From positions 1 to 48,604 of the forward strand of contig JAKPTZ010000125.1 of NCBI GenBank assembly GCA_029555025.1: DNA of 48,604 nt, given 5' to 3'. Numbering within the stretch: the stretch's first letter is position 1; every line of letters starts with the position of its first letter. The position numbers and the translations under genes are program-made. The notes beneath the pieces were generated by a model, which was given only the letters and a program-made list of their open reading frames with translations, made no database searches and was not told the origin of the DNA. Source of the stretch: Deltaproteobacteria bacterium (GTDB lineage: Bacteria > Myxococcota_A > UBA9042 > DTJE01). Shown one piece after another: positions 30,898 to 40,972 of the stretch.

Positions 30898-32415
30898 TCA
30901 AAGCCGCCTGATCGAATCCATCGAATCCATCTTCACGCTGTGAACCGGCGCGAACAGATAGACCAGCGTGTTGAAAAGAAGCTTCCATTCGCGGCCTCGA
31001 CTCTGGAGCACGACATACGGAAGCCTTCTGGTCACATACCTTGCGATCCACTTCGGCCGAAGGAAGAACGATGTATAAAAGCGATCGTGAAGTCTTTCGA
31101 CGTCCTTCCTGGGCGCGGCGGACAGATTGACGCTGAAACGGTTGTAGTGCGACATGTCGGGCTCGTGACGACCCCCGACCATGTACCTGTCCCACGCGGG
31201 ACTGCCGGGATAGGGCGTGAAAAAGGCGACCTGGATCATGGCAGGGTCGATCCGGCGGGCCATTTCAACCGTCTTCTTCATCTGTTCCAGCGTCTCGCCT
31301 GGACAACCTACCATGAAGTATGCGGTAAGCTGAATTCCATGAGCGTGAATCAGCGCGACGTTCCTTTCAATATCTGAATCCGACAGCGACTGGCCCTTCA
31401 ACACTCGACGGACCGCTTCATCACCGGACTCGATGCCGACGCACAGCCCGCGACAACCAGCTTCGGCCATCGCCTGGATCACTTCCCCGTCCAGCGTGGC
31501 AAGATGCGTCTGCGCCGTCCAGAATACGCCGGGATTGCTTTCGCGAATCCTGTGACATATCTCGATGGTGCGATTGCGATCCAGGGAAAAGACATCGTCT
31601 TCGAACGCGATTGCGTTGCATCCGTGATTGACGACAAGATCGTGCACCATGCTGGACACGTATTCGGGGGAATGTGTCCTGTAGCGGGTGCCGTAAGACT
31701 TGCGCAGTGTCGGGGAACAGAAAAGGCAACCGAATGGACAACCACGGCTGGACATGATCCATCCCCAGCGGACACGCCCCCTTACCGGAACAAACGACGA
31801 CATCTTGGCGTACCGATCCAGATCGAACAGACCGAAGTCGGGAAGCGGCAAATCGTCCAGACCTGCAATCAACGGACGGTCTTCGTTGCGCACGATCCGG
31901 GAACGATCGGCAACGGACCAGGTCACGCCGGCAATCCCGGAAAAATCGGGGCCATCGCCCGGACATCCTGCTTCCTGCCAGGATCTGGCGGCGCGCGCCA
32001 CCTCGACCAGAGTCAGTTCCGGTTCGCCACGGACAGCCGCATCAAAGGGCCCGGCCGTGCCGACAAGACTTTCGGGGAACACGTCGGCGTACTGGCCGGT
32101 GGCTATCATCGGAAGCGACCGGCCGCAGTGACGCCTTACCGCCCAGGCGGTATCCATGACCACGTCGCGATTCATCGAATCGACGTGCATCACAAGCATG
32201 CCCATATCGCCGGCAAGCAGTCCGCGAAGCATGCGCGACGGGGCCTCCTCGCGGGCCCACTGATCGTTGACGCTTACCTTGAACCCGTCCTTCTTCAGGC
32301 ACGCGCCCGCATATGCAATCGGAAAGGGAACCTGGCATTCCTGTGGATGCGTGAAGAACTTTCCGAAGAAAGGCGGGAGCCGAAGGAAAACAATCTCTTT
32401 GTCGAAACTGGCCAC
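30898..32415 (-). CDS. B12-binding-domain radical SAM protein
   Basis: A 505-residue protein. The N-terminal 150 residues look like a cobalamin-binding Rossmann domain (VFLRLPPFFG, then alternating strands) but lack the DxHxxG cobalt-ligand motif, as is common in radical SAM members of this class. The radical SAM core begins with SSRGCPFGCLFC (CxxxCxxC), continues with EDDVFSLD and GLCVGIESGDE, and extends to about residue 450. Such proteins often methylate unactivated carbons or rearrange lipids, hopanoids or antibiotics; this substrate is unknown. I chose the GTG start at 32415, with GGGG five bases upstream; a longer in-frame reading to 32547 would run into the divergent gene. Confidence 0.85.
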   Translation of the reverse strand: MASFDKEIVFLRLPPFFGKFFTHPQECQVPFPIAYAGACLKKDGFKVSVNDQWAREEAPSRMLRGLLAGDMGMLVMHVDSMNRDVVMDTAWAVRRHCGRSLPMIATGQYADVFPESLVGTAGPFDAAVRGEPELTLVEVARAARSWQEAGCPGDGPDFSGIAGVTWSVADRSRIVRNEDRPLIAGLDDLPLPDFGLFDLDRYAKMSSFVPVRGRVRWGWIMSSRGCPFGCLFCSPTLRKSYGTRYRTHSPEYVSSMVHDLVVNHGCNAIAFEDDVFSLDRNRTIEICHRIRESNPGVFWTAQTHLATLDGEVIQAMAEAGCRGLCVGIESGDEAVRRVLKGQSLSDSDIERNVALIHAHGIQLTAYFMVGCPGETLEQMKKTVEMARRIDPAMIQVAFFTPYPGSPAWDRYMVGGRHEPDMSHYNRFSVNLSAAPRKDVERLHDRFYTSFFLRPKWIARYVTRRLPYVVLQSRGREWKLLFNTLVYLFAPVHSVKMDSMDSIRRL

Positions 32416-32469
32416 AGCAACCCCGAAAGCGAACCGGATTCCGTGATATCTTAACACAACGGGCCAACT

Positions 32470-32498
32470 GCCGTCAGGCCGGCCTGGAGAATGACGGC
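32470..32498. repeat. Nested inverted repeats in a divergent promoter region
   Basis: The 12-bp palindrome CAGGCCGGCCTG (32475-32486) is nested within GCCGTC (32470-32475) and GACGGC (32493-32498). It lies between divergent starts at 32415 and 32538. It may be an operator; no clear -10 elements accompany it. Confidence 0.35.
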
Positions 32499-32537
32499 CG
32501 GTATTTCCAAATTGGCATGTCGCACGGGGAAAAAGCG

Positions 32538-33734
32538 ATGATTCCAAGGCGTCGTTACAACATCGAGGCCGGCTTCTTCAACGACGCACTCACGGGCAGG
32601 CTTGCCCCATCAAGGATGAGGGCCTTCGTGCCCAGATTCGAAGCCGCCCTGGCCGCAAGCCTCGGCGGTCGCCACTCGGTCCAGGCAACCGGATCGGGAC
32701 GCAAGGCCCTGGCCACGCTGCTGGACACCCTGGGAATCCCAAAGGGCTCGACCATCATGATCCCGGCGTACACCCTGGGGGACATCGGGCCTTTCCTCGG
32801 ACGGCTGGGGTATCGCTGGATCACGTGCGACGTGGATCCCGGAAGGCCGGTGATGACGGCCGCGACCGTGCTGGATGCATGGCCGTCCGGGGGCGACGTC
32901 AAGTGCGTGCTGGCCACGCACCTTTTCGGGATTCCCGCCGACGTTCCGGCCATCGCGAAGGCAGTCGAACCGTTTCACGCGACGGTCATCGAGGACTGCG
33001 CGCAATCCATCGGGAGCACGCTGGGCGGCGCCTGGACTGGCACCCTCTCCAGGGGCGCCATTTTCAGCTTCAACTACCTGAAGCCGGTCAACTGCTTCGG
33101 CGGCGGCGCAATGGTTCTTCCCGGCCACAGGGAAATGCTGCCGCTGAAGTCTCCGCCGCGTGTCGATACGGCCGGCTCCTTCGCCCGCGGCCTGGCCGAG
33201 GATCTCGTTTCCGCGGGGCCGTGGCTGAGATTGCCAACCGCCCTTCTTGCATTTGACCAGTTCCGGCCGACGATGATGATGATTGACCGCATGATCCGGC
33301 GACCACCGGATACGGCGGAAGAGCCGTGCTCCATATCTCCACTGCAGGCCCTTCACGGAATACACTCGCTGGCCTCCCTGGAAAGGCGGCTTGCCTTGCG
33401 AAGGCTGATCGCTCGCAGGCTGTGCGAAGCGGCCGAAATCGATGACGGGCTATACCGCGAAGACTCGCCGGCGCGTTCAAATGCATACTTCTTCACGATC
33501 AGGGTTGCTGACGCACCCGCATTCAGGCGCGAACTCTGGATGCAGGGAATTGACGCCGGAATTGGCGCGGAAGTTGCGGACTACCTGGAAAGTCCCGTCT
33601 GCCCGGAAAGGCCGGCAGCAATGGGATGGTTCAGGGAGGCGGTTCAACTGCCCTGCCACGAATGGCTGACACCAAGACAGGTCGAAAGGATTGTGGCGGC
33701 CATCCGCCAGTCGCGCGACTGCTTTCGACGATGA
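32538..33734 (+). CDS. DegT/DnrJ/EryC1/StrS-family PLP aminotransferase
   Basis: A 398-residue PLP enzyme of the sugar-aminotransferase family. The active-site lysine is Lys182 in NYLKPVNCFGGGA. The cofactor-binding Asp is Asp153 in IEDCAQSIGS. The substrate loop IMIPAYTLGDI is also typical. Members transfer an amino group to nucleotide-linked keto sugars, or dehydrate them, for surface polysaccharides and natural products. No nucleotide-sugar dehydrogenase or epimerase lies nearby, so its substrate is open. The ATG at 32538 has GGGG eight bases upstream; an in-frame ATG at 32517 lies seven codons earlier. It is divergent from the radical SAM gene and ends six bases from the ABC ATPase gene. 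Confidence 0.88.
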   Translation: MIPRRRYNIEAGFFNDALTGRLAPSRMRAFVPRFEAALAASLGGRHSVQATGSGRKALATLLDTLGIPKGSTIMIPAYTLGDIGPFLGRLGYRWITCDVDPGRPVMTAATVLDAWPSGGDVKCVLATHLFGIPADVPAIAKAVEPFHATVIEDCAQSIGSTLGGAWTGTLSRGAIFSFNYLKPVNCFGGGAMVLPGHREMLPLKSPPRVDTAGSFARGLAEDLVSAGPWLRLPTALLAFDQFRPTMMMIDRMIRRPPDTAEEPCSISPLQALHGIHSLASLERRLALRRLIARRLCEAAEIDDGLYREDSPARSNAYFFTIRVADAPAFRRELWMQGIDAGIGAEVADYLESPVCPERPAAMGWFREAVQLPCHEWLTPRQVERIVAAIRQSRDCFRR

Positions 33735-37004: not shown

Positions 37005-37027
37005 CCGCGGTGGTGCTGGAGAGACAC

Positions 37028-38710
37028 ATGCAGGACACGGTCGTCACCATCGAAACCGGACTCGGATGCAACAACCGGTGCGCGCACTGCCCCCAGCCGG
37101 CCATCAGGGCGGCCGGACCGGTGACCCAGCCTTCATTCCAGGAAATCAGGCAGAAAATCGACACGGCAAGGGCCCAGGGATTCACCCAGATCTCTTTTTC
37201 CGGCGGCGAGCCGACGATTCGGCGGGACATCGCCGAACTGGTCAACTACGCAAGGACAACCGGCTTTCAGAAGGTCAGCATCACGACAAACGGCAGGATG
37301 TTCTCGTACCCGAAGTTTGCCGACCTGATGCTGAAGGCCGGCCTGACCGGGGTCAGCGTGTCTCTTCACGGGCCGACCGCTGAAATCCACGAATCGTTGA
37401 CGATGGTTCCCGGGTCGTTCGAGCAGGCGCTGGCCGGAATCCGTTACCTGAAGGAAAGGACGTCGGCAACCGGGGCCGAATTCGACATCACGACCATTAC
37501 CGTGCTCGTCCCCGGAAATATCGACCTGCTGCGCGAGACCCTGCTGCTTGCGCAGGAACACGGGGCGACCGTGCACATCGTGCAGCCGTTCATCCTTTCG
37601 AAGGAGAACCTTGCAAGGGGAGCCAGGTTCCTGCTGGGTATCGACAGGATTGTCGCCGGCATTCGAACCGCGCTTGAGGGCGGGCTTCCGAACGGCCGGG
37701 TCAAGCCGTACAACATACCGCCATGCCTGCTGTCCGACATCGGGCCCGAAATTGAAGTCCAGAGTTACCACCTTCGGACGGTTCGCGAGTTCGACCCGGT
37801 TGACGGCACATCGGCCGTCGGAACCGTCGCGGGCCAGTTCTTCCGGTATTCACAATGTTCCCAGTGCGACGCAATCTGCCCCGGACTCAGGATCGAACAT
37901 GTATCCCAGACGGCCATGGTCAAGATGATCCTGGCCGACATCATGTCGTCGCGACCTTTCGTGCTGCCAAAATCATCGTCTCTCTCATCGACGGATCTTC
38001 TGGAGGCACCGGCCCTGGACAGGCTTCTTGGCGAACTGGCACGCGCCGGGGCGACATCCCCGGTCCTGTTCTGGGGAGGCATAGGGCTTTGTCCGCAGGA
38101 AGACTTCATGGAGGTCTGCCGCAGGCGCAACGTCAGCCAGGTCATCCTGGTGGCCAGGCCGCCTCAGTTGAGGCCGCCTGACGCCCGCGTTTCGATTCCA
38201 GGCAACATCGCTGAAATCAGGGAACTCCTGAAGCGCTTCAGGACGGGGCAGGTTCCGGTTCCGGCGCTTTTCATCGTTATCAACAGCGTCTACAGCGAAC
38301 AGTGCGACTTCAATCGAAAGGAACTGCTGGATCTGGTGGATGCCCTGGTCGAGGCCGGAGGCCGGCGCCTGCTGCTGTCGGCGCCGGAAGGAATGGATCC
38401 CCTTCTGCCGGCACACACGGATGAACTGAAGGACCGTGTCATTGCCGATCTTCCGGCCCTGCTCGCGGAACTTGCCGAGCGCGGCATCGAACCTTGTCTT
38501 TCGCGCACTGTCGGCGTTGATCTGGACGGGCACGACAACCTTCTGGAAGCAAGGGTTGCCGAATTCATCAGGCCGGTGAACCTTAACGACGATTTCCTTC
38601 ACCACCGCTTCGCGGCGCCGGAAAACGGCTGGATCATGTGGTCATACCCGATCTGGATACACAGGTCAGTCCGGGATGTTCCCGTTGTCGATGCCGACCT
38701 CGGGGTCTGA
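37028..38710 (+). CDS. Radical SAM protein with MoaA/SPASM-like auxiliary cysteines
   Basis: A 560-residue protein. The SAM-binding cluster is Cys14, Cys18 and Cys21 (GCNNRCAHC), followed by SGGEPT (58-63) and TTNGR, which are classic partial-barrel motifs. A second Cys group (Cys277, Cys280, Cys284; CSQCDAICPGLR) looks like an auxiliary iron-sulfur cluster of the MoaA/SPASM type. The last 260 residues are of no recognised family and contain GGIGLCPQEDF and VINSVYSEQC. It probably modifies a peptide or a cofactor-like substrate. The start at 37028 has GGAGA upstream. Its end overlaps the convergent radical SAM gene by 45 bases. Note the close resemblance of its barrel to the C-terminal region of that neighbour. 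Confidence 0.82.
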   Translation: MQDTVVTIETGLGCNNRCAHCPQPAIRAAGPVTQPSFQEIRQKIDTARAQGFTQISFSGGEPTIRRDIAELVNYARTTGFQKVSITTNGRMFSYPKFADLMLKAGLTGVSVSLHGPTAEIHESLTMVPGSFEQALAGIRYLKERTSATGAEFDITTITVLVPGNIDLLRETLLLAQEHGATVHIVQPFILSKENLARGARFLLGIDRIVAGIRTALEGGLPNGRVKPYNIPPCLLSDIGPEIEVQSYHLRTVREFDPVDGTSAVGTVAGQFFRYSQCSQCDAICPGLRIEHVSQTAMVKMILADIMSSRPFVLPKSSSLSSTDLLEAPALDRLLGELARAGATSPVLFWGGIGLCPQEDFMEVCRRRNVSQVILVARPPQLRPPDARVSIPGNIAEIRELLKRFRTGQVPVPALFIVINSVYSEQCDFNRKELLDLVDALVEAGGRRLLLSAPEGMDPLLPAHTDELKDRVIADLPALLAELAERGIEPCLSRTVGVDLDGHDNLLEARVAEFIRPVNLNDDFLHHRFAAPENGWIMWSYPIWIHRSVRDVPVVDADLGV

Positions 38711-40972
38711 GGCGGGAACGGGGCTCGAGGACTGAACCAGCCGCTCAATTTCACGCACGAAACTTTCCAGCCCCGAAACCGGCAGGCAGGACACCGGCGC
38801 CTCGAAGGAGACCTGGCGAAGACCGACCGAATCAAGCATGGAAACAACCTGCGGGATCGAATCCGGATTCACGGTTCCTATCTGCACGAGAGCGCGCCCT
38901 CCGATTGCCGCGGATGAAGACGCGACAAGGGACGCGGCGGCCAGGAACGCATCGATGCCGCCACGGCCGCCGGTCGCCCTTCTCCAGTCTTCGTCGGATG
39001 TTCCGAAGACCCTGATTTCGATATCGGTCAGCCCGGCCTTTATCGCGCGGGCCAGCGCCGCCGGCTGGGAAAACACCAGGCCGTCCGTGCGCACCGAAGC
39101 GCCCGGAACCCCCGCCTGGCGCGCAAGATAGACTGCCCGCAGGAAGATCGGGGAAAGGGTCGGTTCGCGACCAAGAACATGCAGCCTTGAGACTGCATCG
39201 GCAGCCCTGGAAATCTTCACCGCAAGCCTGGCCGGCGAGGGATCAAGTGCCGTGTCGGGAAGGTTGCGGCCATCGGGAACCCCGCGCCCGGTCAGGATCA
39301 GTTCCAGCGTGCCTGTTCGCATCGATTCCGCGCGCGGATCGGTGGCGCCAGCGGCCACGACGGATTCCGGCTTTCGCGCGGTGCCACGGCCTCTTGAGTT
39401 CAGTGCAGCCAGGGCCGCGTTGAGCCGCAGGAACACCGAAGCGGCAGATGGCGGATCAAACAGCCTGGAATCGCCCGAAACGACCGCGTTAACGCACCAT
39501 TCAAGCAGATCGACCTGCCAGCGCCGTTCAACCAGTGGATACAGAGCACGATATAGCCGGAAGACCTGCTCGACGCGACCGTCCCGGAACCGCCAGGGGA
39601 TGTCGAATGAGTAACCGAACATCCCGGCAAGGTTCTCGGCGTCGCCGGTTGCCCGTTCCCTGGCAAGCCCGTCCGAATCGGCAAGGGCCGTTATCGGAAG
39701 ATTCGGATAGAGGCGCAGCCGGGAAAGTCCCATGCCGGTCGAAAATTCCTCGATGCCGTCGCGCCTGAATCCATCGATGTTGGCCCGAAGGTCGGACACC
39801 AAGGTCCAGGGCGTGAAAAGGATGAAGCTGGACGCCCGATACCGATCGTATTCAAAGACGTCCGGGTACTGATCGGCAATGCTCCTGCAGACGGCCGCCG
39901 CCTGCGACAGGATCGGCGGCCCATATCCCTTGTTCATGCGCTCCAGTTCCGGCGCGGAATAGTTTTCGAACCCGACCAGGGTCAGCACCAGCGATATTCC
40001 GGAATCCGCGAACTGCCTGGCGCGCAGGCACGCGTCCGTGATGGTTGCCACCTGCCTGACAAGATGATCGCATCGTGCGTGGAAGCAGACCGCCATGGGG
40101 CCCATGCCCGACGACGCCAGGCGCTCGACCAGCAATCCAAGGAATCTCCAGGGCGACTCGTCCCACAGGACCACTTCCCGGCATTCGGGATGAAGGCCAA
40201 GCCACCGGACAAGTTCCAGGAGGATACGGGTGACGGTCGCTTCGGCATCGAGCCCGGAATATCGACCGTCCTGGAAACAGAACGAACAGCCCCGCCTGGC
40301 GACGCCGTCAATCGCGAACGTTACCCCGGAATAGTGCGGATTGTCCGCGACGTCGGCGGACCACGGACACCCGGGATTCACATAGACGGAAAGACGCCTT
40401 GAAGCCTGGCGGGCGCGGGCGGGAATCGACACGAAATCATAGTCGGGGTCGGCCAGAAACAGTGGCGGTCTGCCACATTCGGCATCAAGCGTTGCCGGCG
40501 GGCGTCCGTGGACGGAAACATTCGGAATCCCGTCCGGTTCGCGACCGTTCGCAAGCCGCGTCACCAGTTCGACAAGCGGCGCCGGGTTTGACTGGAAGTT
40601 GAAGACTTTGAAATCAATCAGGTGGGCCGACGCTGGATCCGCTTCAAACGGATACACGATTGATGCATCGCACGCCTTCCTGATGACATCAAAGACGCCC
40701 GGGAAGGGAACTTCTTCACAGACCACGACCTTCGGCGACTGCGCGCGAAGGAAATCCGAAAGCAGCTTAAGCGCCAGATCAGTCTCGGCCGGACTGTCCA
40801 TGTCAAGCTGGACTTCAACCACCCGGGACCGCAATCCGCGGGCAATAACCTCGCCACTGCAGCAGGCGGAAAGTGCCGGGAACCTGAACGTATCGCCGCG
40901 GGACGGGTAAAAGAACAGAAAAACCACGTCAAGTCCGGTTCCTGATTCCCTGTCTGAAGCAATGGAGTTCAT
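38666..40972 (-). CDS. Radical SAM-related protein with atypical cysteines and a degenerate second barrel
   Basis: A 768-residue protein. An N-terminal B12-binding-like Rossmann part (about 1-180; VVFLFFYPSRGDTFRFP) is followed by a radical SAM-like core. The usual CxxxCxxC is replaced by Cys202 (NPGCPW) and a distant CxxC (Cys229, Cys232; RRGCSFCFQDG). WDESPWRFLG and LVGFENYSAPELERMNKG fit the barrel. Residues about 570-768 look like a second radical SAM half-barrel: GREPT (601-605), ASVRTDG and IKAGLT align without gaps to SGGEPT, SITTNG and LKAGLT of the neighbour at 37028, but no Cys cluster is present. Function unknown. The start at 40972 has GGGG five bases upstream; a longer frame upstream is not coding-like. 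Confidence 0.75.
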   Translation of the reverse strand: MNSIASDRESGTGLDVVFLFFYPSRGDTFRFPALSACCSGEVIARGLRSRVVEVQLDMDSPAETDLALKLLSDFLRAQSPKVVVCEEVPFPGVFDVIRKACDASIVYPFEADPASAHLIDFKVFNFQSNPAPLVELVTRLANGREPDGIPNVSVHGRPPATLDAECGRPPLFLADPDYDFVSIPARARQASRRLSVYVNPGCPWSADVADNPHYSGVTFAIDGVARRGCSFCFQDGRYSGLDAEATVTRILLELVRWLGLHPECREVVLWDESPWRFLGLLVERLASSGMGPMAVCFHARCDHLVRQVATITDACLRARQFADSGISLVLTLVGFENYSAPELERMNKGYGPPILSQAAAVCRSIADQYPDVFEYDRYRASSFILFTPWTLVSDLRANIDGFRRDGIEEFSTGMGLSRLRLYPNLPITALADSDGLARERATGDAENLAGMFGYSFDIPWRFRDGRVEQVFRLYRALYPLVERRWQVDLLEWCVNAVVSGDSRLFDPPSAASVFLRLNAALAALNSRGRGTARKPESVVAAGATDPRAESMRTGTLELILTGRGVPDGRNLPDTALDPSPARLAVKISRAADAVSRLHVLGREPTLSPIFLRAVYLARQAGVPGASVRTDGLVFSQPAALARAIKAGLTDIEIRVFGTSDEDWRRATGGRGGIDAFLAAASLVASSSAAIGGRALVQIGTVNPDSIPQVVSMLDSVGLRQVSFEAPVSCLPVSGLESFVREIERLVQSSSPVPASDPEVGIDNGNIPD

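Follow-up and report, generated by a model that had tools for sequence, protein, structure and literature searches.

A tandem radical SAM protein of a Deltaproteobacteria bacterium whose second barrel has lost its cluster cysteines

The window analyzed here is a stretch of 48,604 nucleotides from a Deltaproteobacteria bacterium of the phylum Myxococcota, and all positions are given in its numbering. On its minus strand, 38666..40972 encodes P0001, a tandem radical S-adenosylmethionine (SAM) protein of 768 amino acids (aa). On the plus strand, 37010..38710 encodes its convergent neighbor P0002, a canonical radical SAM (rSAM) protein with the motif CNNRCAHC, starting at GTG 37010 or ATG 37028. 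For P0001 we preferred the ATG at 40972 over the start of a longer, 865-aa open reading frame (ORF), because the alignment with its relatives begins around residue 14. The gene ends at 38710 and 38666 produce a tail-to-tail overlap of 45 bases (38666..38710), as stated in an earlier reading of this DNA made from the letters alone, called here the sequence-only reading. The second genome of the genus (G001) has a full-length P0001 ortholog, 51% identical, which rules out that the ORF is an artefact. The two genes are adjacent and overlapping in both genomes, with a tail overlap of 26 bases in G001, and the gene order around P0001 is the same in G001 as in the window, spread over two contigs. 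As the genes are convergent, they do not form a single operon and are not co-transcribed.

We modeled P0001 with AlphaFold using a 23-row family alignment (A1) as input. The model contains two barrels, with a mean predicted local distance difference test (pLDDT) value of 83.4 and a predicted template modeling (pTM) score of 0.85. The second of them, barrel 2 (residues 551-750; 38723..39322, minus strand, as for all features of P0001), is a cysteine-less, or pseudo, rSAM partial barrel according to the model, fold matches and Pfam. The Pfam Radical_SAM match covers residues 582-683 with an E value of 2.6e-4, below the curated cut-off, and starts at profile position 32, past the cysteine segment. 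The loop that formerly held CxxxCxxC spans residues 561-571 (39260..39292), where the positions of C564, C568 and C571 are occupied by G, G and L, so that the C-terminal part is devoid of the motif, as the sequence-only reading had noticed. GREPT lies at residues 601-605 (39158..39172), GREP being invariant in A1, and is followed by RTDG with D630, FSQP from F634 and KAGLT with G647. The equivalents in P0002, numbered from 37010, are G65, N94, F98 and G111, and the constant offset of 536 residues confirms the earlier remark that four motifs occur in the same order and spacing in both proteins.

The kinship of the C-terminal part with rSAM barrels was corroborated by profile-profile comparison. 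With hhalign, the C-terminal halves of the two genus members matched the P0002 barrel family with a probability of 97.7 and an E value of 2e-12, whereas the best of 40 column shuffles reached 0.05. Against the same P0002 barrel profile, four unrelated protein clusters gave E values of at least 0.13, the value for an unrelated TIM-barrel family, apparently ribulose-phosphate epimerase, being 0.36. The resemblance between the P0001 and P0002 barrels is therefore real. The barrel 2 of the genus also matched the intact barrel 2 of the family (E 3e-14). Compared with known folds, residues 551-768 alone retrieved NifB (Z 15.8), BlsE (15.3), PFL-AE (14.4), viperin (14.2) and MoaA (13.6), and fold comparisons of P0001 were also run with Foldseek. 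The model shows six beta-alpha units, hence a partial (beta-alpha)6 barrel, with pLDDT mostly 90+. Thus, the C-terminal part was predicted to adopt an rSAM core rather than an unrelated fold. A phmmer search of P0001 against PDB sequences returned chance matches only. Barrel 2 is homologous to rSAM domains, yet we do not class it as an rSAM enzyme domain because the three-cysteine CX3CX2C motif is missing.

The relatives of P0001 were gathered from 52 relatives and 282 genomes of the phylum, plus an alignment-based scan of named genomes. That scan recovered family members; a scan of contigs with the P0001 sequence alone gave no match. Many of the loci derive from metagenome bins, and the named records are mostly Myxococcota, with one Candidatus Binatia and several metagenome-assembled genomes whose labels are vague or doubtful. 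One record, L097 (CAMDBH010000029.1), is titled Klebsiella pneumoniae and encodes a myxobacterial-type tandem protein; the label looks wrong, because the protein is the same as that of the G041 locus. The order in A1 is a Rossmann-like domain, barrel 1 with CX26CX2C, and barrel 2 with CNNxCxxC, GREPTL, TNGR and KRHR or KVFG. With a CX26-type barrel 1 followed by a GREP-type barrel 2 in one chain, P0001 fits the definition of this tandem family. Neither Pfam nor NCBIfam has a family covering the tandem architecture, and our literature search on tandem, degenerate or pseudo rSAM domains yielded a mention of the FbiC type only. The gene neighborhoods of the tandem relatives revealed no conserved partner; recurrent neighbor clusters, present at some loci only, include what by eye resemble a ribulose-phosphate epimerase and a DedA-like protein.

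The three cysteines of barrel 2 are intact in 21 of the 23 rows of A1, while all three are substituted in both genomes of the genus, by G/G/L in P0001 and by G/A/P in G001. A first, column-trimmed alignment had made it seem that the cysteine loop was simply deleted; we rejected this, as A1 reveals substitutions. When more tandem proteins were included, the barrel 2 CxxxCxxC was retained by 36 of 40 distinct members; the count was made by hand after removal of duplicate records, and includes L028, whose barrel 2 is partly masked but with CNNGCLEC visible. From their sequences, most tandem relatives, having kept both cluster motifs, are probably two-cluster enzymes. Two further members differ: L116 (5347-7635) has neither the barrel 2 CxxxCxxC nor GREP, and L119 (5116-7659) carries an altered second motif, CACGRPWC, with GGDAT. 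These changes are independent of those in the window's genus. The well-supported branches of a barrel 1 tree, where L116 pairs with an intact member (99/93), require at least three separate losses or alterations of the barrel 2 motif, and the barrel 1 cysteines are retained in all members concerned.

Additional architectures were seen around this family. L080 7353-10763 (the same as L031) and L081 13485-18470 encode larger proteins in which a similar first barrel is joined to a different CxxxCxxC barrel (CNQRCLGC and CNQDCGFC, respectively), so that this type of first barrel also occurs in other fusions. The genomes G046 and G014 contain 14 and 8 matches to P0001, mostly to barrel 1, apparently representing a multi-copy first-barrel family without a P0001-type second barrel.

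The resemblance to P0002 had been taken in the sequence-only reading as a sign of ancestral duplication followed by loss of the cluster in one copy. In a stronger form, the cysteine-less barrel would have been duplicated from the rSAM barrel of P0002 and would serve as its dedicated partner. The constant motif offset, the rank of P0002 as the best other tblastn match of P0001 in its own genome (4.1e-6) and the adjacency and overlap of the genes in both genomes of the genus are in keeping with this scenario. However, a tree of 63 rSAM barrels groups barrel 2 of P0001, which has a long branch, with the second barrels of the tandem family (92/94) and not with P0002. The latter is in a separate clade made up of P0002, its orthologs and a single paralog (100/98). 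The second barrels of L116 and L031, which are decayed or divergent, were placed elsewhere in that tree. An intact second barrel is moreover already present in the tandem relatives. Given this mostly intact second barrel and the tree placement, barrel 2 of P0001 is no copy of the P0002 barrel; as far as the phylogeny tells, it descends from the tandem family's own second barrel. The loss of cysteines from a second rSAM barrel was thus correctly read; the origin from P0002, or a special kinship with it, is not supported.

The distribution of the two genes also argues against a dedicated pair. Counting the window's own genome, full-length P0002 orthologs were found in 11 of the 13 same-family genomes, at approximately 40 to 46% identity and 72% in G001, and 9 of those 11 have no tandem gene. 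The LPG_synthase_TM-family gene that flanks P0001 in the window directly adjoins the P0002 ortholog in G003 and G009, with no P0001 between them. By this distribution, P0002 is older and more widespread than P0001, which seems to have been inserted next to it at the level of the genus. The co-occurrence expected from the sequence-only reading therefore holds within the genus and fails in most of the family. The convergent orientation of the genes also counts against duplication from P0002 into a dedicated partner, a scenario that we regard as very improbable. A partner- or substrate-holding role for barrel 2 as a putative docking half, which had also been proposed, is possible.

We then considered whether the cysteine-less barrel is under constraint. 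Of the barrel 2 columns, 21 show conservation in 90% or more of the 21 intact rows, and 11 of these are lost in both genus members, including the three cysteines, N630, R632, K654, D664 and Q675. G601, R602, E603, P604, G647 and G717 are kept by both. The disappearance of the cysteines and of most SAM-site positions is what speaks for barrel 2 as a decaying remnant without a role, as do the independent losses elsewhere, L116 having lost GREP as well. Yet the barrel is modeled at high confidence, GREP, G647 and G717 are retained, and its identity and dN/dS (the ratio of nonsynonymous to synonymous substitution rates) resemble those of barrel 1 and of intact relatives. Between the congeners, identity is 49% over barrel 2 and 61% over barrel 1, and this ratio of 0.81 lies within the 0.58-0.94 span of the other closest pairs listed. 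The NG86 dN/dS is approximately 0.29 for barrel 2 and 0.25 for barrel 1, values that are indicative only as dS is near saturation. The stem of the genus is longer for barrel 2 than for barrel 1 (3.8 versus 1.5), and that of the intact f6 clade likewise (2.4 versus 0.8). At the sequence level, the pattern of identity and dN/dS fits a domain whose catalysis was lost and whose use was retained, and we find mere decay unlikely. Another explanation would be that barrel 2, although devoid of a cluster, has kept the ability to bind SAM or a similar ligand and thereby regulates or feeds barrel 1. Its predicted fold is intact and it retains E603, which belongs to the GxE position through which canonical rSAM enzymes contact SAM, but the positions of N630, R632, K654, D664 and Q675 are lost, and we are doubtful of such binding.

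The first half of P0001 is of a different kind. An N-terminal Rossmann-like domain of the cobalamin-dependent rSAM type (residues 12-184; 40421..40939) precedes barrel 1, a predicted rSAM barrel (residues 185-500; 39473..40420) recognized by the family alignment, the AlphaFold model and fold searches. Barrel 1 contains C202-x26-C229-x2-C232 (40277..40369), its presumed [4Fe-4S] loop; the unusual spacing had been picked out in the sequence-only reading, and it proved to be invariant in the family, in 23/23 rows of A1. In the genus, barrel 1 retains 49 of 63 family-conserved residues. A variable, poorly predicted linker (residues 501-550; 39323..39472) connects it to barrel 2, the congeners being only 25% identical over residues 501-560 and pLDDT falling below 50 at residues 531-552. 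Residues 12-500 matched the folds of OxsB (Z 21.1), AprD4 (19.8), MgmA (19.3), CysS (19.2) and TsrM (18.0). The OxsB, AprD4 and TsrM matches begin near residue 12, those of OxsB and TsrM at residue 12-13, thus comprising a Rossmann domain ahead of the barrel as in cobalamin-dependent rSAM enzymes. In OxsB and TsrM the Rossmann domain binds cobalamin (PMC13331322). By analogy, that of P0001 may bind cobalamin, or it may be vestigial; the genome does have cobalamin riboswitches, but these say no more than that cobalamin is of importance to the cell.

P0001 can be compared with several known systems. By predicted fold, over residues 12-500 and at Z scores of 17-21, it shares the Rossmann domain and rSAM barrel with OxsB, TsrM, CysS, MgmA and, by fold, AprD4. 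Unlike the cobalamin-dependent enzymes, it carries CX26CX2C where they have CX3CX2C, ends in a complete second rSAM barrel and has no match to the Pfam B12-binding profile. FbiC, the F0 synthase with CofH and CofG in one chain, also has two rSAM domains per polypeptide, both of them active. It has been described as consisting of two domains with homology to CofH and CofG (PMC6450877). In contrast with FbiC, the barrels of P0001 belong to other subfamilies and its second cluster site is lost; two cluster motifs in one chain, as in FbiC, occur in the 36 of 40 relatives and not in P0001. A long loop between the first and second cysteines is shared with QueE, whose CX14CX2C represents an extended loop within an otherwise canonical cluster motif (PMC4389238); that of barrel 1 has 26 residues and lies in another subfamily and domain context. 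NCBIfam TIGR04347, titled pseudo-SAM/SPASM, that is, pseudo-rSAM, did not match P0001 and gave sub-threshold matches only, in P0002 and seven tandem relatives. The nearest named relatives of barrel 2 are HxsC4/HxsC, MoaA, AhbD and BlsE; none comes close to its curated cut-off in P0001 or P0002, and none of these families spans the tandem architecture.

Altogether, P0001 belongs to an unnamed family of single-chain tandem rSAM proteins found in Myxococcota, with Binatota members as well, and it is likely that barrel 1 is the radical site and that the cysteine-less barrel 2 is kept as a non-radical module. In both genus members, barrel 2 has all three cysteines and most of its SAM-site residues substituted, while its predicted fold, GREP and overall conservation were kept. 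Barrel 1 would carry a single [4Fe-4S] cluster, bind SAM and perhaps cobalamin, and perform radical chemistry; barrel 2 would make no radical and would instead lend structure, hold the substrate or dock a partner. Several observations weigh against this proposal. The cysteine-less form of the genus is represented by two sequences only, and the former cysteine loop is the only stretch of barrel 2 with pLDDT below 50 (residues 565-570). Pfam is silent on barrel 1 of P0001, its sole match being the second barrel (residues 582-683), and the assignment of barrel 1 as rSAM therefore relies on predicted fold and cysteines. Regarding cobalamin, the Pfam B12-binding profile (PF02310) was unmatched in all 23 family members at an E value of 0.01, and we know of no cobalamin role for AprD4, which has the same fold.

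The C-terminal half of P0002 (37937..38629, plus strand) is a probable cysteine-less rSAM-like barrel as well. The AlphaFold model of P0002 (pLDDT 85.2) has repeated beta-alpha units beyond residue 320, and in hhalign this half, represented by 15 homologs, matched the intact tandem second barrels with a probability of 84%, an E value of 7e-6 and a score of 44.2, compared with 20.3 for the best of 40 shuffles and 16.7 for the epimerase against the same barrels. It gave no alignment with the genus's own barrel 2 (0.2%), and a PDB profile search with it returned chance matches only; fold searches with the whole P0002 model were dominated by its first barrel. This half is thus a probable, not proven, second pseudo-barrel.

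Elsewhere in the window, 30898-32547 (minus strand) holds another rSAM gene, with a weak B12-binding match and a Radical_SAM match, whose nearest family, HpnJ, is far below its cut-off. The 3.5-Mb G000 genome contains 60 Radical_SAM matches, seemingly a high number.

More broadly, and only tentatively, since we give it less than an even chance, Myxococcota and Binatota may possess a class of double rSAM proteins that combine a cobalamin-type CX26CX2C barrel with a MoaA/HxsC-like barrel, in which the second cluster was lost repeatedly and the barrel kept as a working, non-catalytic module. P0002 would likewise use a second barrel without a cluster, and pseudo-barrels would constitute a recurrent substrate-holding or docking module. 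Two rSAM barrels in one chain are uncommon, the family is nameless in Pfam and NCBIfam, and its cluster-loop spacing exceeds those that PMC4389238 quotes for QueE, HmdB and PhnJ. The repeated loss of a cluster site with the fold kept provides natural variants for studying what an rSAM barrel does without radical chemistry. In barrel 2 of P0001, one half has been switched off by nature, and relatives in which both halves look active are available for comparison.

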